From contig JAQIFP010000019.1 in the NCBI GenBank assembly GCA_030141585.1, positions 143,966 through 168,599 on the forward strand: a stretch of 24,634 nt of DNA, read 5' to 3'. A model generated the notes under the pieces. That model saw only the letters and a program-made list of their open reading frames with translations, was not told the DNA's origin and ran no database searches. Numbering within the stretch: the first letter of the stretch is position 1; every line of letters starts with the position of its first letter. The DNA is from Ophryocystis elektroscirrha. Lineage: Eukaryota > Apicomplexa > Conoidasida > Neogregarinorida > Ophryocystidae. A program made the position numbers and the translations under genes. Below, one piece after another: positions 1 to 21,983 of the stretch.

Positions 1-3000
1 TGTAAATTTATTTGTAAAGCCAAATCATACAGCTTGTAATAACTAACATCATAGACTAATGTCTGAAATTCTATGGATTTGGTGGGATATTTAAATAAAG
101 TATTTTTAGATATATCTTCTAAAATTTTTTCTGCTTTAGGTCGGTCATTTGGTAAAAATATATAATAGCTTTCTAAATAAGCATATATGTAAATTCTGTA
201 TACATACTTGTATTTGGGTTGCTAGTAAATCCGTTTAATATTAAAGCATCTAAAACCTATTGATATGTACATATAAAATATGATATACTTCTTTATTGTT
301 CTCATAAAATTTTACCGATATCCTCATTGAGCTATCTGATATACCAACTCCCCACAAATACACTAATAAAGGGTCTGGATTATGTTTTAGAAATTCGTTT
401 TTATAAACTCTTTTCTTTTGTTCTACATCATCGGTTAACAGCATTTTTGGCAGAGCTAACTGCAAAATATAGTTAAATTAATGTTTCTGTTATCCAATTT
501 CAATATATTAATAAATTACAAATAAACCATTTTTTATTAATTATTTTTTTAATTAATAACATATATATATATCTATATATATATATATAGATATAAAATA
601 AAGTTTTCTATAATTATTAATATTATTTAATATGTTAAAACTATAGGTTATACTTACATGAATCCATTTATGAAGCTGCTCTTCAGTATATATATCACTG
701 ATATCTCTAGGCCTTTCTACATTAGGTGCCTTTATAGGCCAAACCATCATATAATCTTTATAAAATGGTTTCAAGAATAAATTAACTAGTGTTTTTCTTT
801 CATTTTTGACTTCTGAGTGAAACAACGGATTGGGAATGTGCATTAAGATCAAAAAAACTATTATACAAAGCTAATATAAGGAAATTTGAGCAAAAACATT
901 TCATTACTAATTGATAAGGTGTTTTCTTCATGTGATATCTAAATTCTTCATATTGCATATAAAATGTATTGGGACGATTGTGTTCAAAAGATTGCGTCAA
1001 AGCAAGGAACTTATTGTCTATGTCTTGCACTTTTTCCAAGGCAATTTGCTTATTTTTAAGTTTTTGCTTTTTAAGATTTGCAGGTGATTTTTCATTGATG
1101 TCATTTGAAGTAAAGCCTTGCCAGCTAAAGTAAGTTTATACAGGATTTTTACTAACCTGGGTTGACTTCCTATATTATGGACATTCCCGTGTATATCTTG
1201 AATATAATTCTATTAAAAAATTAAATAGTATTATTTTTGATAGCTAATATATTTATGGATATACTTAATTAATTACGACAAGTACAAATAGTGGCATTAA
1301 GTAACAGTTCATTATAAAGCTATTCAGCTTGAAGTAAAAACTCATTAATAATAATAATAATAATTTATAAGCACTGTTATAGGCTTCAATTATCAATGAC
1401 ATTAAATGTAGTATATAAGAATGTATATTATATACTATAAATATACAATTTTTGTATTTAGTAATTATATAATTACATTCTGGTTTTCCTTCCAAGAATC
1501 GTCAACAACGTAATCTTCAGGTATATATTGTTCGTTTGTACTTTTATTTTCTGACTTATTTTTGATCCATGAAACTAAGTTTAGCAATAATATATATTTA
1601 ACTTACAGAATTTTTGAGTTTTTCGAATGATTCTTAGACACCCATACCGATATATTTTCTTAAACTCATACACTGGTGGATTTTGTAATAGATAATCATC
1701 ATAAACCTTTATCAAAATACAAGTATTTTAGTAAAGTTTATATGTATAAATAAAAATATATAATCGTATTATAATAAAAATTTATTATATATAATAAAAT
1801 TTATATATATTATATACATTATAAATATTATATATGTAATATATAATATATTATATATAATAATGACTATTTAATATATATATATATAACATATAGTATA
1901 CAATATATAATATATAGTATATAATATATTGTATTATATAACTATTATATATCATATATGAATACATATATATATATATATCATTTGTATAATTAAAGAA
2001 AAAAAGTATGTATATGTAATACAATATAGTTAATGTATGCTGCTAACAGCTTATACGTTTGATATTCACCTTTTGATAACGAGAAGCAAATTCTACAAAA
2101 TACATGGCAGGGAAAAGAATATGGTTTAGCAATATAAAAAAAAATATAGTGATCTGGGATAGAATGGAATTATCTTGAGTTTGGATATTTCTAAGTGTCT
2201 GAAAACATTCTTTCAAGATAAATAATTACTGTGAAAAAACATTGCTTAAATGTAGTTAAAAAACTGTTTTTAAATCCAGCAAAGTATTGATCATCAGAAG
2301 CATATAATGCAGAGTTCCAAACGGTAAATACTATAAAAAATAAATTGCTCCCGTCATTCAAAGTATACGAAAATATAAATAATGTTATATAATAATGGAT
2401 ATGCTTGAATATTATATTTGAAAAATATATTGCATATATACATTAACATATTAAAATTATATCCAGCTAAATAATAATGCAATTATGTATTTCTAAGTCT
2501 TTACTTGATATACTTTTAACTGCTTTTCTATTAAGGGAAGTTTTATAGTATAAAAAAATAATTAAGTTATATGGGAATATACTTACATATTGTAAAGACA
2601 ATTTGCAATATAAATATTGAGAGAGAATGTCGAAACCATATTGGTATTGTTGCTGCTACAACGTATACTTCTGCTTCATTTGATAATATCAAGTATCTAG
2701 ATTATATGTGGTACTTATTAACTTACTTGTTCAACAAAAACACTAATCCAAAGCAAGAAATTGTATGAAATATTCTCAAAGTATTTCTAAGCCTTTTAAG
2801 TGTTCGGAATGCATCAAAAACGCGAATAAAAACAGCCTAGAAATGGAAAAAAGTTGTTAAGTAAATAATTGTGCATGAATAGTTTATTATACAAATTTTC
2901 CGCCTATATAAAATTTTATACAAATTTTGTATAGAATATCAATATATACATAATTTATTCAATAAATAAGATTACCTCATTAGTATTAATCATTGTATAG

Positions 3001-3284
3001 TTTTCTATCAAGTTAATATCCTTTCCAACAGTTACAGCATTGCCAGCAAGGCTGGAAGCTGAAGAGAAATTGAGTTTTCTGGAGTGTAGAAAAGCCACGT
3101 TATTTAAAATTACAACACAGACTATCAAAAAATAAAACCCAGCATTAGAAAAAAGCTGCCATACTTTTAAAAACGTTATTCCTTTCAACTCTGATTATAT
3201 ACATTATATTAATTATATTAATTATATTAATTATATTAATTATATTAATTATATTAATTATATTAATTATATTAATTATATATG

Positions 3285-3340
<56 letters not shown>

Positions 3341-5612
3341 ATTACTATTTATAATATACATTAATTTCATAAATTTAATTGTTATTCTGAGAGTGAAATA
3401 AATTTTTATAATTTATGTTATAATCTTTGTATATCGTTATTACTTTCTTCATACGCTTTGGGAAGGTGATTTACTATTGCAATTATGGAGTACAGGATAA
3501 GAAGTATAGAGTAAATGATTTGCATAACGGTAAAACCATTTTCAATGTTTACATGCGTTATAATAAGATCATGATGTATATATCCCGATGACTCCAACAT
3601 GACAACTAACCTGAGAAGAAAAAAAATACTGAATAAAAAAATGGACGGCCAGGGCATCGATCCCTGTACCTCTCGCATGCAAAGCGAGCGCTCTACCATT
3701 TGAGCTAGACGCCCTTACTCAATATATGCCGTGGTTTTTGCTTTAACATTATAAGTGAAAAACTCTAACACTACGCTTGCAGTGTGGCGGTCAAAAGGAT
3801 TATTCATAAACTTTTGTTCAAGAGATTTCTGTTGGTATATAATTATTAAAAATGTTACATTAAACGTTGCAGGATTAGTGGCAGTAAACCAATAAACAAA
3901 ACCCCCATATCTTCGGTATCCTAGAGATGAATTTTGAGGAGGTATTTCTTCCCTAAATGAATTCAAACGCTTATATGGAGAAATAACTGGATACACCCAA
4001 GCCTATATATATATATATACATTTTAATATTGTTATACGTCTTTGAAAAACCCTTTAAAAACTGCATCTGTACTCTTTGCAGCGCGTCTTTCGGTCATTC
4101 GTATACCGCCACTAATTATATTGTATTTTGCCACAGCTGGTAACAATTTGCCTAAGCTCTATAAAACAAAGCAACTTTTAATTATTTATCCAACATGTTG
4201 AAACATACGGTATTATAATGTAAATTGCACATGATTTTATCAATATTTAATAATATATATCAATTACCATATGTATATATAAATATACGATATACCATAA
4301 GATGTCTAATTAATAGATACTATGTTTATATATCATGCCTATAGCTTTGTATATGATATCCATAAGTTCACGCTAAAGAAATGTCCGCTGTATTAAGTTA
4401 TAAAACCCATGTTGTATATAATTAAATATACTATTATAATTAATTATACTATTATAATTAATTATATTACTATAATTAAATGTATATACCATAACTATTA
4501 TATATATTATGATAATAGAATATCTAATCAAGCATTATTTACTGCATTTCTTTTCATTTATCTTTATTAATATACTTTTTTAATACCCTGATTGCAATTT
4601 ATACTAAAATAATTAATTAAGTACAATTAATTAATTAATTATTATTACAAATAATTAAATAATTAATCACTATTACATTTATTCCTTGTCATGTGTGTCT
4701 AAACTTTACACATAGAAAAAAACTTATATGTGTATAAACAAATTATTTAATACTTAATTTAATGTATAATTCAATATATACATATTTGTATATATACATG
4801 GTAAAAATAAGACGTACTTGAAAACACCATGCGGAAAAAGCCTCAGTCGTGGTAAGATTAGATATAGTTGTCCATTCTTCGAGCATGATAAGATTACTGC
4901 TTGATATATTTGTGCCTCTACTTTCAAAAGGATTAAACTTTTCAATTTCTATAGCAGCTCGTAAAGGTAGAATATCGAAATGTCCGAAATTCGGTACAAT
5001 ATATAAACATGTGTATATTATGTAGGTTATAAAAACGCATATATATAGAAGAATAGAATAACTAAAAGTACGCTCATTTTTATTCTCCAAATTGACATTT
5101 TTAAGAAACCGTGTCCAATGTGTAAAATCCACAGGAAATATCAAATACCGCATAAGTTGATTATTTTCAACAGGTTGTTCATTTTTTATGGAAAATCCAA
5201 ACTCCTTCACTTCATATTCGTTTATTAACTCTTCATTTTCTTCTATGGATTCCTCTTTTTCGGTGACGTCAAACTTAACATTTTTTTCTGTTCGAGAGTG
5301 AGTTTTTTTAAGTGTGCTTGTCAACTCTTTTTTTACTGCCTCATTATTGTGATTTATTTTTTTTTTATTTCTTGGTTTTCTTTTTCTTATTTCATTATTT
5401 GACTGATTTACAATATTCTCCGATTTCTTCGTTATCAGATTATCAGCTGATACGTTATTGTTCGAATATTGTTCATTTTCTAATATCCTGCTCTCTAGAT
5501 TTAAATCAGCTGAGTTTGGTGCTTGTGATTGACGCTTTTTTATCAAATTTTGATAAACCTCTTCATCAATCGGCGGGGGCGGTGATAGCAATAATTTATC
5601 ATGATTTTCCAT
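1..5612 (-). CDS. Tandem polycystin-like (PKD2/TRPP-type) cation channel, 3' end beyond window
   Basis: A multi-pass membrane cation channel of the polycystin family. I model 17 exons: 5612-4818, 4158-4039, 4002-3719, 3610-3444, 3190-2976, 2836-2727, 2696-2587, 2330-2230, 2198-2070, 1706-1607, 1574-1477, 1209-1157, 1124-908, 870-658, 459-289, 256-208 and 172 to the edge. All phases agree, giving 1034 codons without a stop. The start ATG at 5612 opens a charged cytosolic N-terminus of about 180 residues. Unit 1 has TM1 (about 183-206), an extracellular TOP/polycystin-like region (to about 425, including the stretch ending FFTYNVKAKTTAYIELVV), further membrane segments (about 426-448, 471-490), a basic S4-like stretch, S5 and a pore helix (about 588-634) and an S6 segment FFFILLNHILFPAMYF. 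After a hydrophilic linker, a second TM1-like segment (about 832-848) and a second TOP-like region (SKNTLFKYPTKSIEFQTLVYD) follow. Membership of the family is well supported; ion selectivity cannot be read. Confidence 0.75.
1707..2069 (-). other. Long AT-rich intron 9 of the channel gene
   Basis: This 363-nt intron lies between the S6 exon and the linker exon. It is almost pure A/T with many TATATA runs (1790-2000). I see no coding signal or RNA gene in it. Confidence 0.6.
3203..3340. repeat. 9-bp ATTAATTAT tandem array followed by a TA tract (intron 4 of the channel gene)
   Basis: About nine direct copies of a 9-bp unit (ATTAATTAT phase) lie at about 3203-3283. They are followed by a nearly pure TA dinucleotide tract to about 3340. 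Both sit in the 253-nt intron 3191-3443 of the polycystin-like gene. Confidence 0.9.
3635..3641 (-). terminator. Pol III oligo-T terminator of tRNA-Ala
   Basis: Seven consecutive T on the minus strand follow the discriminator base directly. This fits RNA polymerase III termination. The same T-rich stretch, together with a second T8 run just downstream, also makes up the pyrimidine tract before the CAG acceptor of the host intron at 3611-3613. Confidence 0.7.
3642..3714 (-). tRNA. tRNA-Ala (anticodon TGC)
   Basis: A 73-nt cloverleaf can be folded by eye on the minus strand. It has a 7-bp acceptor stem, D stem GCTC/GAGC, anticodon stem CTCGC/GCGAG around loop TTTGCAT (anticodon TGC), T stem CAGGG/CCCTG and discriminator A73. 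The acceptor stem carries a G3-U70 wobble pair, the classic identity element for alanyl-tRNA synthetase. One acceptor position (T6-C67) is mismatched. The internal promoter resembles A box TAGCTCAAATGG and B box GGATCGATGCC, the latter of the form seen in plant tRNA-Ala. A run of seven T follows directly and would end Pol III transcription. The gene lies wholly inside intron 3 of the polycystin-like gene, in the same orientation, and starts 4 nt after the intron's first base. Confidence 0.93.
4159..4817 (-). other. Long AT-rich intron 1 of the channel gene
   Basis: This 659-nt intron has donor GTACGT after residue 265 and acceptor TATAG before the next TOP-domain exon. It holds short TATTATAATTAAT-like repeats (4429-4480) and AATTAATT runs (4610-4640). 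I see no exon or RNA gene inside it. Confidence 0.6.
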
Positions 5613-10938: not shown

Positions 10939-13713
10939 TTAACTATTTCCATAAGTAGATTTTCTGTCTGAGTCGTAATAATAATCGTCGGAACCCTCAG
11001 AATCAGTGTATTTACTATAGTAATGAGTGCTTTTGCGTCGATCTTTTTTATATTTGTCCTGCTCATCACTGTATTTTCTATGTGTATCAAAGCTAGGATA
11101 ATTATCTTGTTGTTGCTCGTAAGATACTGAAGGTTTATTTAAATAAGTATTTCGATGGGATCCATAATCAGCATCTGGGTTTAAGTATATTGGCTGACTT
11201 GGAATTAATACCGACGCTCTATTAGCAGGAGGTACTGATAAAAACTGAGCAGGTACAGCCTCTGTTGACGTCAATACGGTTTGAGGATAATTTGGCGCTT
11301 GAATGTATTGTGAATATCTAGTTAATCTTCTTCCTGAAGGTCGTCTTTCTGATTGTCTTCTTTCTGATTGTCTTCTTTCTGAATGTCTTCTTTCTAATGA
11401 TCTCCTTTCTAATGATTTTCTTTCCGACGGTCTTCTCTCTGATGGTCTTCTCTCTGATGGCCTTCTCTCTGATGGCCTTCTCTCTGATGGCCTTCTCTCT
11501 GATGGCCTTCTTTCTGATGGCCTTCTCTCTGATGGCCTTCTTTCTGATAGTCTTCTTTCTAATGGTATTTTTTCCGATGGTCTTCTTTCTGATGGCCTCC
11601 TTTCTGACAGCCTTCTTTGTGATAACCCTTTTTCATATGACGCTTGATCTAATTCTGTACTTCCCCTTGCATCTTCATATTTTTCGGAATCTAAATTTCT
11701 ATCAATTTCTCCATCGTGTGGCATGAAGGTTGCTATAGATGGTTGTTGCGTAGAATAGTATAGTGGTGGCATAGTGTACATTTGAGGTTGTACTTGAGGC
11801 ACAGCTAATACATATGGTACAGACAATCGCTTTGTATGCTTGGTTTTATTCGTAGTTTTTACACTTCGTAAATCAGCAAAGGTTTTTCGCGTTTTAGGTA
11901 TTTCGTTTGAATTTGATGGTGAATATTTGTCGCTGCTGGTATATTCTGGCGTTATAACATTTGGAGGTGCTATTGGTTTAATAGTTTCAGATTGCCGTTT
12001 TTGATATTGAGATTTTCTAGCTTTAGCGGTTGTTGTTTGGCTTTTTGATTTTCGAGAGCTACTTTTTGCTCGACCTATCAATGCAAAACACAATAAACAA
12101 GAATATAATAATCATTTGAACTGATTATTATATAATTATTATATGATATAATTAATCTTATTCTATATTTTACTCAAAATTGATTTTACTTGTACCTTTT
12201 GACGAATTCGAAGAGATTTGTAAGTTTTCTTGTTTTTCGGGCTCATAGAACGGTACACTCAGCATTTTTGATTTATATTCAGTATAGTCTTCAGTTTTTG
12301 GATGCACCACTAATAAAATGTAATTTACTGTACAGTTATTAAATTTATGTACTCGTTAAATTAGTTTAAACAGTTTGTTAGCATATTATGAAAATTTTTC
12401 TTAACTAGTTGAATTCTTTTAATAAGTTATCAGTAGATATATGAATTGTTTGTTGAAATAAATAAGTTGTATAAAATATTTGAATTTATATTTATAAATA
12501 AGCATTGATAAATTTAACTAATTGACTAAATTAGATATACTCTATACGTATTCTCAATAATACCAGTTTCATATACAGGTATATGCAATTCTCGTGTTTT
12601 AGTTTGCTCAGATATGTTGTTAGTATTGAAATAAGATTTTCGCGTTGAATTTCCTTGTTCATTGGACAGAGGGAATTCATTGAATGTTGGTGTATAGCTT
12701 GCGCGTAATTCATTATTTACTTCATTACTCGGATTATAACAAGCTCTTGGCTCTGGGTAATAACTAGGTCGGGGATCAGGATTGTAGCTAAGTCTAGGAT
12801 CTGGTTTGTAGCTAGGTCTAGGATCTGGGTTATAGCTGGGCCTAGGGTCTGGGTTATAGCTGGGCCTAGGGTCTGGGTTATAGCTGGGCCTACGGTCTGG
12901 GTTATAGCTGGGCCTAGGGTCTGGGTTATAGCTGGGCCTGGGGTCTGGGTTATAGCTGGGCCTGGGGTCCGGGTTATAGCTGGGCCTGGGGTCTGGGTTA
13001 TAGCTGGGTCTGGGGTCTGGGTTATAGCTGGGTCTGGGGTCTGGGTTATAGCTGGGTCTGGGGTCTGGGTTATAGCTGGGTCTGGGGTCTGGGTTATAGC
13101 TGGGTCTGGGGTCTGGGTTATAGCTAGGCCTGGGGTCTGGGTTATAGCTGGGCCTAGGATCTGGGTTGTAGCTAGGTCTGGGATCTGGGTTGTAGCTAGG
13201 TCTGGGATTTGAGTTGTAGCTGAGTCTGTGATCTGGGTTGTAGCTGGGTCTATAGCTTGTGTTATAACTAGCTCTTCGAACCGGTTCGTAATCATTCATG
13301 GGCGACTCATAATTGATGCCAGTATTATCGTTATAAGAATCGGAGAGTTTTTCTTCACAAGGTCTGAAAGTGGCAGGTTCTTGGTTTTGTTTGAAAGCAA
13401 CGGCTTTTTGATTCGCATTTGAAGCAGCGGCTTCAAGTCTGGCTAAAGAAGGTTCTTGAGTTGATTGTTTAGAATTTTCTGGAGGCGAGTTATTGAATTT
13501 CGATCGCACATATTGGCACATTGACAAACAGCATTTCTCAGGTGGAGCAGATGAATCTGGTCTACGTTGTGCAGCAGCAGTACATCGCGAAATCACATTA
13601 GAATGATATGCGCAACAAAATTTCGATCTATTGCATGGTGTTGTTACTTGAATATTGACAATAGGAAGTTCTTTATAACCATGTAGAGATTCTACATTAC
13701 TCTGGCCACACAT
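10939..13713 (-). CDS. Double-repeat protein (octapeptide PRPSYNPD and pentapeptide SERRP arrays)
   Basis: Three exons (13713-12564, 12309-12196, 12074-10939) join in phase to give 799 residues; the family is not recognised. The N-terminal 110 residues are Cys-rich (pairs CCAY and CCLSMC), with no signal peptide. Next come about 21 copies of an eight-residue unit PRPSYNPD. A short middle exon follows (HPKTEDYTEYKSKMLSVPFY). Exon 3 has a Lys/Ser-rich stretch, a Pro/Tyr region, then exactly 20 pentads around SERRP, and a Ser/Tyr/Asp-rich tail ending DRKSTYGNS. The protein looks largely disordered and strongly basic in the pentad array. Merging the exons rests on phase and splice sites. Otherwise the first exon could be a separate 395-residue protein ending at 12526. 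A structural or cytoskeletal role is possible but unproven. Confidence 0.7.
11323..11622 (-). repeat. 15-bp tandem array encoding 20 SERRP-type pentads
   Basis: Twenty contiguous 15-bp units occupy exactly 300 bp inside the last exon of the double-repeat gene. The central eight units encode identical SERRP, while flanking units vary (SEKIP, LERRS, SERRQ, SGRRL). The array reads in frame with the gene. It also leaves other frames open, which explains long spurious frames on the opposite strand. Confidence 0.95.
12732..13252 (-). repeat. 24-bp tandem array encoding about 21 PRPSYNPD octapeptides
   Basis: About 21 units of 24 bp lie in the first exon of the double-repeat gene. Central units are nearly identical and differ in silent positions in blocks, while units at both ends carry amino-acid changes. 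The plus strand here has regularly spaced GGG runs, a local G-rich island in an A/T-rich genome. Confidence 0.95.
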
Positions 13714-14069
13714 TGCGATCTGAAGACATTAATTTGATCAGTATTTTGTTAATTAAATGTGCTTCAACTAATTATACATTAATTAAGTATTATTTTACAG
13801 ATTTAACAATATTTATACTTGTTAATTGAGCACAAATTATCTCTTTAATTCACTTAGCCAAGTGTGTGGTATATATTGCATGCAATGAAAGATTATCTTC
13901 TTAATAAAAAAAAATGAAAACTTCAAATTATCTTAATTAACATATCATTGAACTGTCATTGGAAATAATATAAGCGCTTAAAAAATTATATCAATAATTT
14001 TTTGGAAAACTGTGTGTATTTTTTCTAGATTACTTGTAGTCCTTTTAAAGTCAGCTAAATAAAAAATAT
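13714..14069. promoter_or_regulatory. Shared divergent upstream region (double-repeat gene / Rtf2)
   Basis: 356 bp lie between two divergent start codons. It is AT-rich, with a poly-A run at about 13905-13913, and should contain both promoters. I cannot name a motif. Confidence 0.5.
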
Positions 14070-15013: not shown

Positions 15014-16105
15014 ATGCTGAAGTTATACAGTTTAGTTGCATTGTTTTATACAGTTAACGCTTTACCAAGGCCATCAAGTAAAACATGCTATGAAGGGTAT
15101 ACATTAAGTCGTAATAACATATGTGTTCGTGAAATAGACGAAACTCCTCAGCCGGCCTGCCAAGCAGGGGACTTAGATGGGAAAGGATGTCGTGTTCAAA
15201 TACCAAAAATTACAAGGTGCAATGAAGGTTATACAATGGACAGTCAAACTAAAACTTGTTCATATATATTACCTAGTGAATTTCAATACTTTTGCCCACC
15301 AGGTTTCACTGATAATGGTGATGATTGTATATTATCTACTCCGGGACCTATTACCGAGTATTGTGAGGATTCCGAACGTGTAGGAGATAAATGTATTAAG
15401 TTTTTAAGAGCGGACAAAATAGTTACAGTAGACTGTCCTGAAGGTTCTGTAAAAGACGAAGAGGATAAATGTTGGAAAGTAGCTGAAACATTTGACTGTA
15501 GTGAAAATCTTCCTAAAATTGCAGCACTTCTTGATAATAACAAAAAAAAACACAGAACTTTAGCTGGAAATGAAGGTTTTACTCCAGCTACACCTCCAAA
15601 ACAGTTTAGAACTGTTGTTGTTACACAAGGTTGTGAAAAAAGATTTGAAGTCCCAGCAGTTGTCACGCAATATTGCCCAGAAAATTTTGTTTCTGATAGC
15701 AAAGGTTGTTTTTTAGAAGAAGCAGTACCACTTAAGACGAAATGTATTGCTACTGGAGGATCAGTTCTAGAATGTCCTCCAGTTATTAGAAGGACACCAA
15801 AAGTTGCAAGATGTCCTGATGGACTTATCGGAACTCGAGGAAAATGTTTGGAGATAGTTAAAGGAGATACTATACAATATTGCCCCCCAGATTTCGAAGA
15901 TAAAGGAGATATGTGTGAGAAATTTATAGAAGTTTCTCTAAAATGTCCTGCTGATTTATTGTTTAAGAACGGAAGATGTTTGGGAAGAAAAACGCATGCT
16001 CCAGTAATATTGTCAGATACTCAAGTTGGTAATTTAAGTAGTACAACATCCACACCTCTAAAGATTCCATTCAAAGAGCCAAGAGCAATGAAACCATTTA
16101 AATAA
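15014..16105 (+). CDS. Oocyst-wall-protein-like cysteine-rich secreted protein
   Basis: A single-exon, 363-residue protein. The start MLKLYSLVALFYTVNA is a signal peptide with a likely cleavage before LPRPSS. The mature part has 24 cysteines in repeated modules of the form C-P-x-G-F/Y then about 6-8 residues then C, e.g. CPPGFTDNGDDC, CPEGSVKDEEDKC, CPPDFEDKGDMC and CPADLLFKNGRC. This is the pattern of apicomplexan oocyst wall proteins (Cryptosporidium COWP and coccidian OWP families). A spacer of about 40 residues without Cys (from SENLPKIAALLD to the Gln-Gly-Cys) splits the modules, and the tail is Ser/Thr-rich and basic. By analogy it would be disulphide cross-linked into the oocyst wall or stored in wall-forming bodies. 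It is shorter than COWP1. It converges with Sec23, 52 bp away. Confidence 0.85.
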   Translation: MLKLYSLVALFYTVNALPRPSSKTCYEGYTLSRNNICVREIDETPQPACQAGDLDGKGCRVQIPKITRCNEGYTMDSQTKTCSYILPSEFQYFCPPGFTDNGDDCILSTPGPITEYCEDSERVGDKCIKFLRADKIVTVDCPEGSVKDEEDKCWKVAETFDCSENLPKIAALLDNNKKKHRTLAGNEGFTPATPPKQFRTVVVTQGCEKRFEVPAVVTQYCPENFVSDSKGCFLEEAVPLKTKCIATGGSVLECPPVIRRTPKVARCPDGLIGTRGKCLEIVKGDTIQYCPPDFEDKGDMCEKFIEVSLKCPADLLFKNGRCLGRKTHAPVILSDTQVGNLSSTTSTPLKIPFKEPRAMKPFK

Positions 16106-16157: not shown

Positions 16158-16964
16158 TTAAGATTGAACAGCAAGTTTTATTAAATGTTCCATGAAGTAT
16201 TTGAGAGACACATCATCTAGTATAAAAAATTTAAAATATAATTTGATTTTTACCAGTGATTACAAAGTTATTATTATCTGAAGCAAATGTGCCTACAGAC
16301 TCCGATAATGTGTGATGTGTAGTAGAAGGGTTCACTTTAGCTAATAAAAATCGAGCCTGGCTTCCTCCAGCGTTGCAACAAACAAATTTGGGAGCGGGAA
16401 AACGTAGATTGATCATAGTTTTAGCATCTTTGAGAGGGTTCTATTATAAACTTAATTGGGAAAAATAATTTACACATAATAACTCTGCGAATGATGCGTA
16501 TTCCGGGTTTTTATCATAGCCTTGTTCTTTCCAAGATGTAATTGTATCCCCATACCAAACCACGATCTAAAATTAATTACAATTATTTCAGTTTTTATAT
16601 ATACATGTTTATGTATATATGTACTAATATTATTAAATATAAATATCCATGTATATGAATATCCGTATATATACATATCCATAGTTATACATATTCATAA
16701 TTATACATATATATATATATATGTTTATTTACATATATATATATATATGTTTATTTGCATATATATATATATATGTTTATTTACATATATATATATATAC
16801 ACATATTCACATATATATATACTCATATATATGTATATATTCATATATATACATACTAATGTGTTTACATATACATATAGTTTAAATACATATTTTAATA
16901 TATATATAGTTATACATGCTTTTATATAAATATATTAATACATATACATACTAATGTAATTACA

Positions 16965-16999
<35 letters not shown>

Positions 17000-17448
17000 G
17001 GATTTAAATACACATTGTTATATATAAATAATTATACATGCTATAATATAAACATGTTGTCTATATATACATACTATTGTAACTACATATACATATATAT
17101 ATATATATATATATTAGTTTAAATAAATATTTTTATATATAGATAATTATACATGCTCTTATACAAACATATTAATATATATACATGTTAATTTATATAC
17201 ATATTCTAATTATAAATATTTGAATTTATAAATTTCTATATATATACATATCCATACAGTTATAAATTAAATACTACAATTTTTTGGCATATGTGTATAA
17301 TTTGATTGTGATTGATTATTTAGTTCTTAAACTCTAAATATATAATAAAAGAGATAACAATATATATTCAATCAATTATAATATACTTCCTGGTTTATAT
17401 CATATTGAATACACTATTTAATAAGGGTCCACCTCTATAAATTAAATT

Positions 17449-17488
<40 letters not shown>

Positions 17489-17953
17489 CTGTCTAGTATT
17501 AATTTAAATTCACGCAAATATTTTCTTTTAATTCTATATATAATTATATTCATTTCTTATGTTTATATAAGAAAGTACTTTGAACCTATAAAGTCGAAAC
17601 CTTACATGGAAAAAAGAGTCAAGTAATAATATGGCGTCCGGTTTAAGTGCTGCGACGTCAAGTTGAACAGACTGCATAGGTCCTGATTATAATTTAAAAT
17701 CAAAATAGTCTACTTTCAAGCTGATAACTGAATAGAGCAGGCTGAATCATCAGTAAACTATTGTGGACATTTTCACGAAGCATTATTGAGCGGTAATAAG
17801 CGGTTTCATCTGGACTGATAAAAAATACATTATATACATTTTTTTCTTTATAATCACACACATATTCAATATTCTTAATACGTGAGTCGTTATAAAATAT
17901 CTTTATATCAATTGATATTATACTCTTCGCAGAATAACTTTTACCGATGCATC

Positions 17954-17997
<44 letters not shown>

Positions 17998-18954
17998 TGT
18001 ATATTTTTATGTATACTTAAATCTTTATATATATATATATATATATATGTTCATGTATATTTTTATGTATATATTTACAATTTTATTTATTAATATATAT
18101 ATATTTATGCATATATATATTTATAATAATTTATGAAAAATTATATATACAATCGAAGACATACAGTAGAGAATATATAAAAAGAATATAAATAGAAATA
18201 AATAAAAATAGTTTATGGTTATATCATAAACTAAATAATATGAATAAAACTATTTCTTACATACCTAATATTGAAGGTTTGCAAAAAGTGCGAGCGTCTA
18301 AGATGGTACATGAAACCAGGGTAAAGACAGAATTGTTGAGCAAGCTGGAAAGTTGAAGGATCGTCTGGCTGATAATCAGCGAAACGGCTAACAAATCTTA
18401 TCAATTTTCGATCAAGCCATCTATCAAGTAGTTGTAAAAATCGCAAGCATACTTCAAAACATCTAAACTGTCCTCTAGTTCCGCTTTATGTACAGCTAAC
18501 TTTGCTACTAGTACTGCTGCAGCTTCTTGATCAAATCCATTTCCGATATCCAGTAAATTGCCCTCTGAGCATCTGTACGCTACTAAAAACGATATTACAG
18601 TAAATAATTAAGTGAGGAGTGTATAATATATATATGGATTTTTGGATATATATTGACATTATAAGCACATAATTATAAAATTAAACAAATATAAAAAACC
18701 ACAGATAGGGTTTCTCTTTAATTATATTAATTACCAGTAGTAATACGGATACGACGTTGTCCAGATGGATGACTATATGTCGTTTTAAACTGAAAATAAT
18801 TTTGTTGATTATTGGATTGATGCGTATTTGACTTTGAATTCCCTATCTCAAAATAAATTGCTATGGTGGACTGATATTTAAAAAAAAAAAGAATGAATTT
18901 GTTTCAAAATAAATATGTAACTAATTAAATTTATATATATACTATATACATATA

Positions 18955-18999
<45 letters not shown>

Positions 19000-21856
19000 T
19001 AGTGTATATATATAAATATATTTTATATTTATAGGTATGTTAACGTTATATGTATTACAAGTGTATTAAATATATAATATTACCCTATGATCTAGAGCTG
19101 GAATAGACCATTCACAAGTTTGGCTTTCTCCAACAGATGTATCTCCTACTTGTGGGCTTTTTTTGTTAGTGGAAGCACAGCTGCCCACAGCTCCACAGAT
19201 CTAAAAAAAAATTTAGTGTAAAATAATTGAAGACTTTTATATCCTTGGAAACTAAAAGCTCGATTTTTGCAGAGTACGCTTGTTGAAGATGTCCATTTGA
19301 ATCGGTTTCAAAAATTGCTTTAAAAGTATCTGTGAAGACATTCATCGAAAAAGAATCACTCATGACTACATATCCTCCAGTTTTGTCGGATATAACCTGA
19401 AAGTGTAATACAATTTATGAGATGTACTCTCATTTCATACAAGCCTGTTTGGTCAAGCGAGCAAGCAAAAATATCTACAGCGTGCCCAGCATTCACAGCT
19501 CTAGCTGCAAGTTTTTGGTAATAAGCTATGGCTTTTTTTGCGTATTTAGCGTTATCTGTATTTCTTTGGAAGTCCAAATGATGTCTTAAGTTTTCGCTCA
19601 AAGATGATCCCACTATTTGACCGGGCCCCACAGTACAGGCTCCTCCTGTAAATAACATAACTCTGCCACTCTGCTGTGCTGCGCAGGATTCCAGTAAAGC
19701 CAATGCTACGCTTAAAGCAACTCCTGTACAGCGTTCTGCTCTACATACAATAATTGATTTATACTGTAAATTATCGTCATATTTTACGTTATTTATTTTA
19801 CATATATATATATATATATATTAAAATATGTAGCATGTCTTTATACATATATATACATAATTGGATCTATATATATGTGAATAACATTAAGTATGAAATG
19901 ATATATATATATATATATATATTTAACCATACTATTGAGTAAATAATACTTTATAGCAGATATTTTTTTAAGATATGTGAGACGATTAGTACTTTGCAAA
20001 ATTTATTTTATGCTTATATTATACACAGCCAAGTAATATTGAAAATTAACTTGTATGAATATGTACATAGGCAAAAATTACCTATGGTCGGGTAAGCTGG
20101 GCCAATCATCTTTTTGTAGATTTTCTAATATAGTATTTATTGAAGTAGAGCATTCTTGAATTGGCAGTAAAAATCTTCTGGCAGTTGCGCCTCCAGCTGC
20201 TCCTCTTGGATCTCTTGAAACTATGCGAAGTTGTTTTTGAATGGCTTGAGAATCAATTAATTTGTCGCCTTTAAATACATAAGCCTTTAGGCATTCAGTG
20301 AAACCTAACTCGTGGACTGTGCATAACTTTCCAAAAGTAATTAATCCAATGGAAGTTGATGGAGGAATGTTTTTTAATGTCTGTAATATTAATATTTTTT
20401 AATTTGTTATTTATGTATATATATATATATATATCGTCTTTATAATTATAGTATACGTATATATATATTAGCAAAATGTGCAAAAATATAAAACTGCGTA
20501 AAAAATGTGTTTATAAAACTAAATACCTGATGTAACGTTTGTTTTAAAATGTCTAATTCTTCAGGAAATAAACACGTATCTATAACTAATAGAATGCTGA
20601 GAGGATTTATAAAGCCAGTTAATTGAGGAGGGAGCACATAATCGACACAAGTATATAGCATTTCTGGAGGAGGTCGAGTGGTCAGATGATCAAGATACTT
20701 AGGAGGAAAAGGAGTTCGTTGACCCGAAAAAGGACATATCCAAGATTTATTCCTTCAATCCAATAAAATAAATTATTAAACACTATATTCCATTAATTCA
20801 ACTTATTATATTACAATTTATCAATAGACAATGTCTTATACATATTCATATATATATAAACACAGACATATATATATATATGTATATATTGTATATGAAT
20901 TTATATTTGGAAATATGTATATATATATTATGTATTTATATATGTATATATATGTAAAAATGAATGTATACATATATATGTAATCTGTATCAATATGTAT
21001 ATATATATATATGTAACAAAATTATTTCCGGAGACATTTTTAACAAACCCTTTATTTATCTTTATCATATATATTTGCTTAGACGGGGATATATTGGATA
21101 TTGTGTAATACCTGTGGTCTATTTGACAGAAAGGATTCAGTATGCATCCTGATTGTTTACACCGTAATGGTTCGTATTCTAGTCTAGGGGTATTAATTTC
21201 CTAAAAAGAACACTAGGTTATAGCTGCTTAAAATTCTGCCAGAAATTGCTATTGATATAAGCAAAAACAATTAAGCTTAATTTAAGGTATATAATAAAAA
21301 TATTCTTTTTTTTTTTTTCTTTCAATATATTACCTAAAACTTTTGATAAACATAATAACTCTGATTTGCACATATATATATGACACGTTTTATTTTTATC
21401 ACTCTATATTCATATATGTATATACTAAATGATACGTAACTCAGCTACATGTATAATGTTTCTTCTATTATTAAGAAAAACCCCAGATTATATATGTGCA
21501 CGTTAAGTTATTTGAAGTTAGGCTAAAGCCCATACTTAGGGTAGGATGTTCATGTATATTTGAAAACTCAAGTACTGTGTAAATCATGAAAGTATTATTA
21601 ATAATTTGTAAGATGAAGGGGATTGTAGACTAATAGTCACCACGCATATAAATTGAGCTATATGTATGTGCTTATTCGTATACACGTTATAATAATAATA
21701 TATGCAGTATTATATGCAATTTGAAGAATATACTTTTAATGGGGTGAATAAGGCGCCAAAAGGCAAGTCTATTTTAGAGGCTTCAGTTTTGTTAGGAGGC
21801 CAAATATTCCATGAAAACCTTAAGCCCGTTTGCGACTCAATATCAATTATATCCAT
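16158..21856 (-). CDS. SEC23: COPII coat GTPase-activating subunit Sec23
   Basis: The inner COPII coat subunit and Sar1 GAP at ER exit sites. Fifteen exons: 21856-21734, 21200-21112, 20752-20527, 20380-20082, 19740-19428, 19396-19235, 19200-19084, 18870-18735, 18582-18453, 18420-18265, 17814-17714, 17682-17606, 16566-16474, 16440-16254 and 16216-16158. They join in phase to a complete 755 residues (human 765). Landmarks: [19 protein letters not shown]; zinc finger C55, C60, C77 with Ser at the fourth ligand position 80; trunk ILLVIDTC and [15 protein letters not shown]; beta-sandwich with [13 protein letters not shown]; helical [23 protein letters not shown]; gelsolin domain [15 protein letters not shown] with the catalytic arginine finger about residue 704; C-terminus [19 protein letters not shown]. 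Six introns are 31-37 nt. It lies head-to-tail 127 bp after the PI-kinase gene. Confidence 0.95.
16567..17605 (-). repeat. Microsatellite-rich intron 12 of Sec23
   Basis: This 1039-nt intron is the longest in the window and is dominated by TATATA and CATATA tracts. At about 16703-16800 a unit of about 32 bp, a TA tract followed by TGTTTATTT(A/G)CA, recurs about three times. A similar motif with GTTTAAAT recurs between 16880 and 17120. No exon or RNA gene is seen; Tyr/Ile-rich open frames are repeat artefacts. Confidence 0.85.
17815..18264 (-). repeat. TA-microsatellite intron 10 of Sec23
   Basis: This 450-nt intron contains two long TA tracts (about 17950-17995 and 18025-18048), each followed by a similar segment of TTCATGTATATTTTTATG type. 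That suggests a local duplication of about 60 bp. Confidence 0.7.
18944..19020. repeat. TA dinucleotide tract in Sec23 intron 7
   Basis: A nearly uninterrupted TA tract (about 18957-18994) with flanking TA-rich sequence, inside the 213-nt intron 18871-19083. Confidence 0.85.
19741..20081 (-). repeat. TA-rich intron 4 of Sec23
   Basis: A 341-nt intron with TA tracts at about 19800-19822 and 19901-19922. No other feature is seen. Confidence 0.6.
20753..21111 (-). repeat. TA/CATATA-rich intron 2 of Sec23
   Basis: A 359-nt intron rich in TATATG and CATATA runs (20840-21012). Nothing coding is seen. Confidence 0.6.
21201..21733 (-). other. Intron 1 of Sec23
   Basis: This 533-nt intron joins residue 41 (after FTPLK) to the exon beginning [11 protein letters not shown]. 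It is less repetitive than the other long introns and has some G/C-containing segments (21480-21620). I found no exon or RNA gene in it. Confidence 0.55.
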
Positions 21857-21983
21857 ACTTGTTTGCAAACTTACAGTTTGGTAAGGTATGTTGACTATAT
21901 ACAAAAAAAAATATATGTGGGAATAATGTATATGTATCAACACATAAAATGATATAATTTAAATTATATGACATTAAAAGAAG
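21857..21983 (-). promoter_or_regulatory. Short spacer between the PI-kinase stop and the Sec23 start
   Basis: Only 127 bp separate the kinase stop codon from the Sec23 ATG on the same strand. Polyadenylation signals of one and promoter elements of the other must therefore be packed here or overlap coding sequence. Confidence 0.5.

Follow-up and report, generated by a model that had tools for sequence, protein, structure and literature searches.

Transfer RNA genes inside introns, and other structured RNAs embedded in pre-mRNAs, have been described in several systems. In C. elegans, 44% of 609 tRNA genes are intron-hosted, on either strand; effects of the host promoter are described, Pol III occupancy is lower for tRNA genes on the same strand as the host than for those on the opposite strand, and tRNAs that are spliced out of introns are called possible (PMC4999229). 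Human introns contain nimtRNAs, look-alikes derived from mitochondrial tRNAs, which are reported to raise splicing and which in 293T cells are left unprocessed as tRNAs (PMC7722341). The essential RNase P RNA of Drosophila, once made by Pol III, is now trimmed from a Pol II intron (PMC6797745). Among apicomplexans, a class of short introns is known, with a mode of 28 nt in Porospora cf. gigantea and a length of 37 nt in Gregarina niphandrodes (PMC9250747), and a polycystin-type TRP channel, TgTRPPL-2, is known from Toxoplasma (PMC8216714).

The locus described here lies in a window of 24,634 nt (the whole stretch of DNA that was analysed, C29:143966-168599) from an assembly of 8,008,172 bases in 118 contigs. 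In our preferred reading, to which we assign a probability of roughly 0.73, it is a functional, single-copy tRNA-Ala(UGC) gene, transcribed by Pol III, that shares its strand with a polycystin-like channel gene and is nested in one of the spliceosomal introns of that gene, an intron of the minimal class (Table 1). Like the cases in C. elegans, it places a tRNA gene inside the intron of a protein gene; in the present case, tRNA sequence fills most of the intron, 4 nt lie between the splice site and the first tRNA base, and the tRNA is single copy (PMC4999229). With the nimtRNAs it has in common a cloverleaf within an intron, but it possesses a sister gene of 95% identity, tRNA-Ala(AGC), and intact A and B boxes (PMC7722341). 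By comparison within the assembly, where tRNA-Ala(AGC) sits on a contig of 51.8 kb, a mitochondrial-derived look-alike of the nimtRNA type seems unlikely. It resembles the Drosophila RNase P RNA as a structured RNA in an intron and departs from it in that its Pol III signals look intact (PMC6797745). Its intron, counted without the tRNA, may be compared with the short introns that apicomplexans such as Porospora cf. gigantea possess; in the available parts of that account we found no intron-hosted tRNA (PMC9250747). The host gene is probably of the same kind as TgTRPPL-2, a likeness of type and not a claim of orthology (PMC8216714). For an overlap between a tRNA and a splice donor, the literature on tRNA, introns and splice sites, as far as its texts were available to us, yielded no case, which is weak evidence of absence. 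We therefore class the locus as an intron-hosted tRNA gene, unusual in its tightness, and not a new kind of system.

Table 1 Features of the tRNA-Ala(UGC) locus, its host gene and the other nested tRNA genes (window positions, unless another locus is named)
Feature	Position	Strand	Basis
tRNA-Ala(UGC) gene, 73 nt	3642..3714	-	ARAGORN + Rfam RF00005
A box, TAGCTCAAATGG	3696..3707	-	identical in sister tRNA-Ala(AGC)
B box, GGATCGATGCC	3653..3663	-	identical in sister tRNA-Ala(AGC)
T7, putative Pol III terminator	3635..3641	-	directly after tRNA
Predicted spliceosomal intron, 108 nt, GTAAGG...TTCTCAG, hosting the tRNA	3611..3718	-	sequence signals, frame, weak Pfam match, MAFFT, gene finder
GTAA, donor start and 4-nt intronic leader of the tRNA	3715..3718	-	sequence; donor statistics
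Second T run (T8), pyrimidine tract, acceptor CAG	3611..3626	-	sequence
Alternative in-frame acceptor AG (90-nt intron, +6 residues)	3629..3630	-	read from sequence
Leader arm of predicted 11-bp helix covering donor, ATATTGAGTAA	3715..3725	-	folding; weak statistics
Trailer arm of predicted 11-bp helix, TTATTCAGTAT	3626..3636	-	folding
Host exon 1, start codon	4818..5612	-	gene finder
Host exon 2	4039..4158	-	gene finder
Predicted minimal intron, 36 nt, just upstream in the channel gene	4003..4038	-	table of introns
Host exon 3, preceding the tRNA intron, with polycystin-like domain	3719..4002	-	gene finder + Pfam match
Host exon 4, downstream of tRNA intron, 3' end less certain	3444..3610	-	gene finder + Pfam match
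Further channel-gene exons, approximate model	1..3190	-	gene finder
155-nt intron of ARF-like GTPase gene with tRNA-Thr(AGT), sense	L019:2453-2607	-	junction FFD|MSGAQ aligned to ARF1, E 4.7e-10
169-nt intron of folC-like gene with second tRNA-Asn(GTT), sense	L017:2950-3118	-	TIGR01499, Mur_ligase_C
133-nt intron of coiled-coil-like gene with tRNA-Pro(TGG), antisense	L046:2963-3095	-	reading frame only

Four things can be read directly from the DNA: the tRNA, its nesting, the putative splice signals and a frame that stays open over the predicted junction. From 3718 to 3611 on the minus strand the interval reads GTAAGGGCGTC...TTTTTTTTCTTCTCAG, a GT-AG intron of 108 nt in which the tRNA occupies bases +5 to +77, with +5, +6 and +7 being G1, G2 and G3 of the tRNA. 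The joined exons stay in frame (phase 2, GA|G; ...KTTAYIE|LVVMLESSG...), and the retained intron would read GAG TAA, an immediate stop. The same splice sites were picked by a crude, home-made gene finder, which was trained on long ORFs and in which tRNA bases were barred from exons by design; it merged neighbouring genes and could not classify every tRNA context. We regard the intron as very probably real and spliced as predicted. The initial annotation, which had placed the tRNA on the coding strand of an intron with its first base at +5 and had described an intron with hardly anything in it besides the tRNA and splice sites, agrees with the sequence on both counts, 35 of the 108 nt lying outside the tRNA. 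Its placing of the Pol III terminator in the pyrimidine tract needs correction: both are in the same intron, but the T7 run (3641-3635) abuts the tRNA and the acceptor tract is a separate run, T8CTTCT, at 3626-3614. An alternative acceptor 18 nt upstream of the main one is also in frame, and its product scores 12.3 bits (E 0.12) against the Pfam family Polycystin_dom (PF20519), compared with 17.2 for the main acceptor.

A length of 108 nt is by itself acceptable for an intron here, 19 of 111 gene-finder introns measuring 60-145 nt and 25 of 111 measuring 31-37 nt. The 15 ordinary introns that could be anchored by homology, namely 13 in Sec23 (within the alignment to Sec23 structures), one in Rtf2 and one in the ARF-like gene, measure 31, 31, 32, 33, 34, 37, 54, 146, 152, 213, 341, 359, 450, 533 and 1039 nt. 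Subtracting the tRNA from its intron (108-73) leaves 35 nt, and minimal introns of the genome are 31-37 nt; since introns of that size are common here, we take the tRNA gene to occupy an intron that would otherwise measure 35 nt. Sec23 itself (window 16228-21894, minus strand) has two length classes among its 13 introns, five of 31-34 nt and the rest of 146-1039 nt.

The overlap between tRNA and donor is narrower than first proposed. The sharing of bases holds from +5 onward, but GTAA lies outside the tRNA. In the 15 anchored introns, A stands at +3 in 14, G at +5 in 3 and G at +6 in 1, and among the 111 introns of the gene finder, which form a crude set, G is found at +5 in 28 and at +6 in 7. 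By these counts the tRNA supplies only weakly used donor positions, and the constrained GTA(A) lies in the leader. The suggestion of a contest between U1 recognition and 5' processing of the tRNA over identical bases was therefore overstated. The 5' end of the U1 candidate of this genome, AAACTTACCTGG, pairs with GTAAG, so that a contribution from tRNA base G1 is still possible. A physical competition between spliceosome and processing is plausible as a side effect, because the expected RNase P cut falls directly after +4, and +5 and +6 are paired in the acceptor stem.

Could such a competition amount to regulation, in line with the possible link between tRNA output and channel expression raised in the initial annotation? 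On this account, which we consider unlikely, the tRNA fold and an 11-bp helix between leader and trailer would hide the donor, RNase P and the spliceosome would be mutually exclusive, and tRNA maturation would be traded off against channel mRNA. The predicted helix extends the acceptor stem over the donor with -8.7 kcal/mol, ranking first among the 44 tRNA genes of the assembly; the predicted pre-mRNA fold pairs the donor, and retention would bring the immediate stop described above. It also fits that +5 G (GTAAG) occurs in all three sense-nested introns of the genome compared with 3 of the 15 ordinary introns (hypergeometric 0.0245, post hoc), as though a structured intron called for a stronger donor. 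The helix, although the strongest of the 44 by folding, is statistically weak, the null fractions being 0.027 for 1892 chimeras and 0.028-0.039 for shuffles (5000 each), all post hoc. A Sec23 donor whose splicing is supported by the protein is, moreover, predicted to be equally closed (0.02 vs 0.04), so that closure of a donor does not imply silencing. One could further speculate, with the same low expectation, that tRNA gene and intron form one functional object, in which the folded tRNA is looped out and the spliceosome sees a 35-nt intron, the helix and RNase P allow a transcript either splicing or tRNA maturation but not both, the supply of the only tRNA-Ala(UGC) and channel mRNA are thereby linked, and the intron may even have arisen together with the tRNA, the donor coming from the tRNA leader and the pyrimidine tract from its terminator.

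Under the preferred reading of an independent Pol III gene, the A and B boxes of the tRNA would direct its transcription by Pol III, which would stop at T7 and would not depend on the Pol II host. Splicing of the Pol II pre-mRNA would use the donor GTAA(GG), which begins immediately before the tRNA, and once the tRNA has folded, donor and acceptor would lie about 35 nt apart. The tRNA copy within the excised intron would mostly be discarded, and an RNase P cut in an unspliced pre-mRNA would mean the loss of that transcript alone.

The stop codon right at the junction could instead mean that there is no intron at all, and that the tRNA separates two genes, the first of which ends at GAG TAA. 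We hold this to be quite unlikely, although the gene models of the host come from the crude finder. The stretch in exons 3 and 4 was taken by eye to be presumably polycystin-like before the Pfam scan. PF20519 matches the joined exons with an E-value of 0.0037 in a 96-aa cut and of 0.0093 and 0.013 in longer cuts; the match runs ungapped over the junction and reaches 17.2 bits, under the Pfam cut-off of 23.6. Exon 3 alone, exon 4 alone and the 752-aa spliced model gave no match to this family. In the controls, the read-through frame matched another family, CitMHS (E 0.0029), and when the joined stretch of 96 aa was shuffled 8 times, 3 of the shuffled versions matched some family at E <1 (0.00052, 0.056 and 0.09), the best of these being the unrelated family Kei1 at E 0.00052; PF20519 was matched by none of the 8 shuffles, and the reversed stretch matched no family. 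Being under the cut-off, with read-through and shuffle controls reaching similar E-values, the match is weak, which favours two genes. Against two genes, however, stand the need of the ungapped match for both exons, the presence of the same family in a paralogue in the genome, the fact that a first gene would end within the domain and before the channel part, and the fit of donor, acceptor and phase.

MAFFT aligned the joined exons to polycystin-2 (PKD2; PDB letters) with no gap through the junction, and a pairwise phmmer comparison of the two gave 0.9 bits. A protein search with the spliced channel returned 6739 candidates, none at E 0.01, a PDB search with exons 3 and 4 found no match, and the pore domain PKD_channel (PF08016) was matched neither in the 752-aa spliced model nor in a by-exon scan of the genome, for which the control genomes were prokaryotic. 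The intron appears better supported by the MAFFT alignment, together with two homology-proven sense tRNA-bearing introns elsewhere in the genome, than by the PF20519 match. The polycystin-like paralogue (L055, G000:C31:21780-21980, minus strand) scores 22.1 bits against the PF20519 cut-off of 23.6 and carries the homologous stretch in one uninterrupted frame, so that the 108-nt intron is not common to both paralogues, which fits a gain of the intron as well as a loss.

With an intron in place, the tRNA could also be a product of the Pol II transcript, made from the excised intron or from the pre-mRNA by RNase P and Z or by exonuclease trimming and not by Pol III; the initial annotation had named the excised lariat as a possible source. 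The position of tRNA and host on one strand would permit this, and for the Drosophila RNase P RNA just such a move from Pol III to the processing of a Pol II intron is described (PMC6797745). We nevertheless judge it very unlikely, since the A and B boxes are identical to those of tRNA-Ala(AGC) and a T7 terminator follows, which together make up a complete set of Pol III signals as judged from sequence, and since a tRNA-Pro nested antisense in the same genome cannot work in this way.

The gene itself looks like a canonical tRNA. ARAGORN and Rfam RF00005 both uphold the tRNA-Ala(TGC) call of the initial annotation, the Rfam match being full length at 50.5 bits against a cut-off of 29. G3:U70 is present, and the acceptor stem contains a U6xC67 mismatch. 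A DNA search of the 8.0-Mb assembly found two similar places, the gene itself and tRNA-Ala(AGC), and among the 44 tRNA genes read, those for Ala comprise one each with UGC, AGC and CGC, making this the sole UGC-Ala gene found. The two similar genes differ at 4 of 73 positions (34, 50, 64 and 67): the first anticodon base, 34; the T-stem pair 50/64, in which the change is compensated; and 67, opposite U6. The compensated pair argues for function of tRNA-Ala(UGC). That the gene is a degenerate copy dropped into the intron, and a tRNA no longer, is hardly credible: its score is the lowest of the 44 and it has the 6-67 mismatch, but the sister, at 51.1 bits, has a mismatch there too, the T-stem pair is compensated, no second UGC-Ala gene was found, and GCA is a common codon, with 356 of the 1014 Ala codons counted in long ORFs.

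The locus is not the only nested tRNA gene of this genome. Introns host at least 4 of the 44, three in sense (in the polycystin-like, folC-like and ARF-like genes) and one in antisense, a count that was obtained by reading the 90-nt flanks of all 44 genes and three loci at length, together with homology, and that is a lower bound, long introns being possible for the remaining 40. In the ARF-like gene the junction presumably falls in a G3-like motif. The folC-like gene matches TIGR01499 with 203.1 bits against a cut-off of 162.65, the best stretch covering 171-498 of 505, and its match to Mur_ligase_C, at 24.7 of 28.4 bits, spans the junction. A local nesting score did not separate tRNAs from random positions, values of at least 35 being reached in 4 of 88 tRNA-strand tests and in 20% of 800 random placements. 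The distance from donor to tRNA is 45, 44 and 23 nt (the last antisense) in the other three loci and 4 nt in tRNA-Ala(UGC), the tightest of the four. What had been called unusual is thus so in part: intron-hosted tRNAs occur repeatedly here, and in C. elegans they make up 44% of the tRNA genes (PMC4999229), but the 4-nt donor spacing stands out. The locus offers a natural limit case for the packing of a Pol III gene into a spliceosomal intron, with 4 nt between the donor and the mature tRNA end and a stop codon if splicing fails, and the nested loci, at least four in number, can be compared with the other tRNA genes of the genome, which makes interference between Pol II and Pol III, and between spliceosome and RNase P, testable by ordinary RNA sequencing.

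The survey behind these counts scored 63 of 376 candidates, so that the 44 tRNA genes found in the 8.0-Mb assembly and read with ARAGORN are a lower bound; a run of at least 4 T within 40 nt accompanies 40 of the 44. One locus (L048:3001-3225) holds a tandem pair of nearly identical tRNA-Leu(TAA) genes with fewer than 60 bases between them. The window is AT-rich, with 22-36% G+C per 2 kb, and carries intron-rich eukaryotic genes (Sec23, Rtf2 and a PI3/PI4-kinase-like gene). (TA)n and long TTAAT repeats occur in introns and intergenic DNA, for example at window 3190-3340, and minus-strand ORFs at 12564-13719 and 10944-12074 encode tandem protein repeats (YNPDPRPS and RRPSE); a Pfam scan with the first 193 residues of the ORF at 12564-13719 gave no match. 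On the plus strand, a single exon at 15014-16102 encodes a cysteine-rich protein that gave no match in a Pfam scan, has 48% identity to one unnamed protein and looks CPW-WPC-like.
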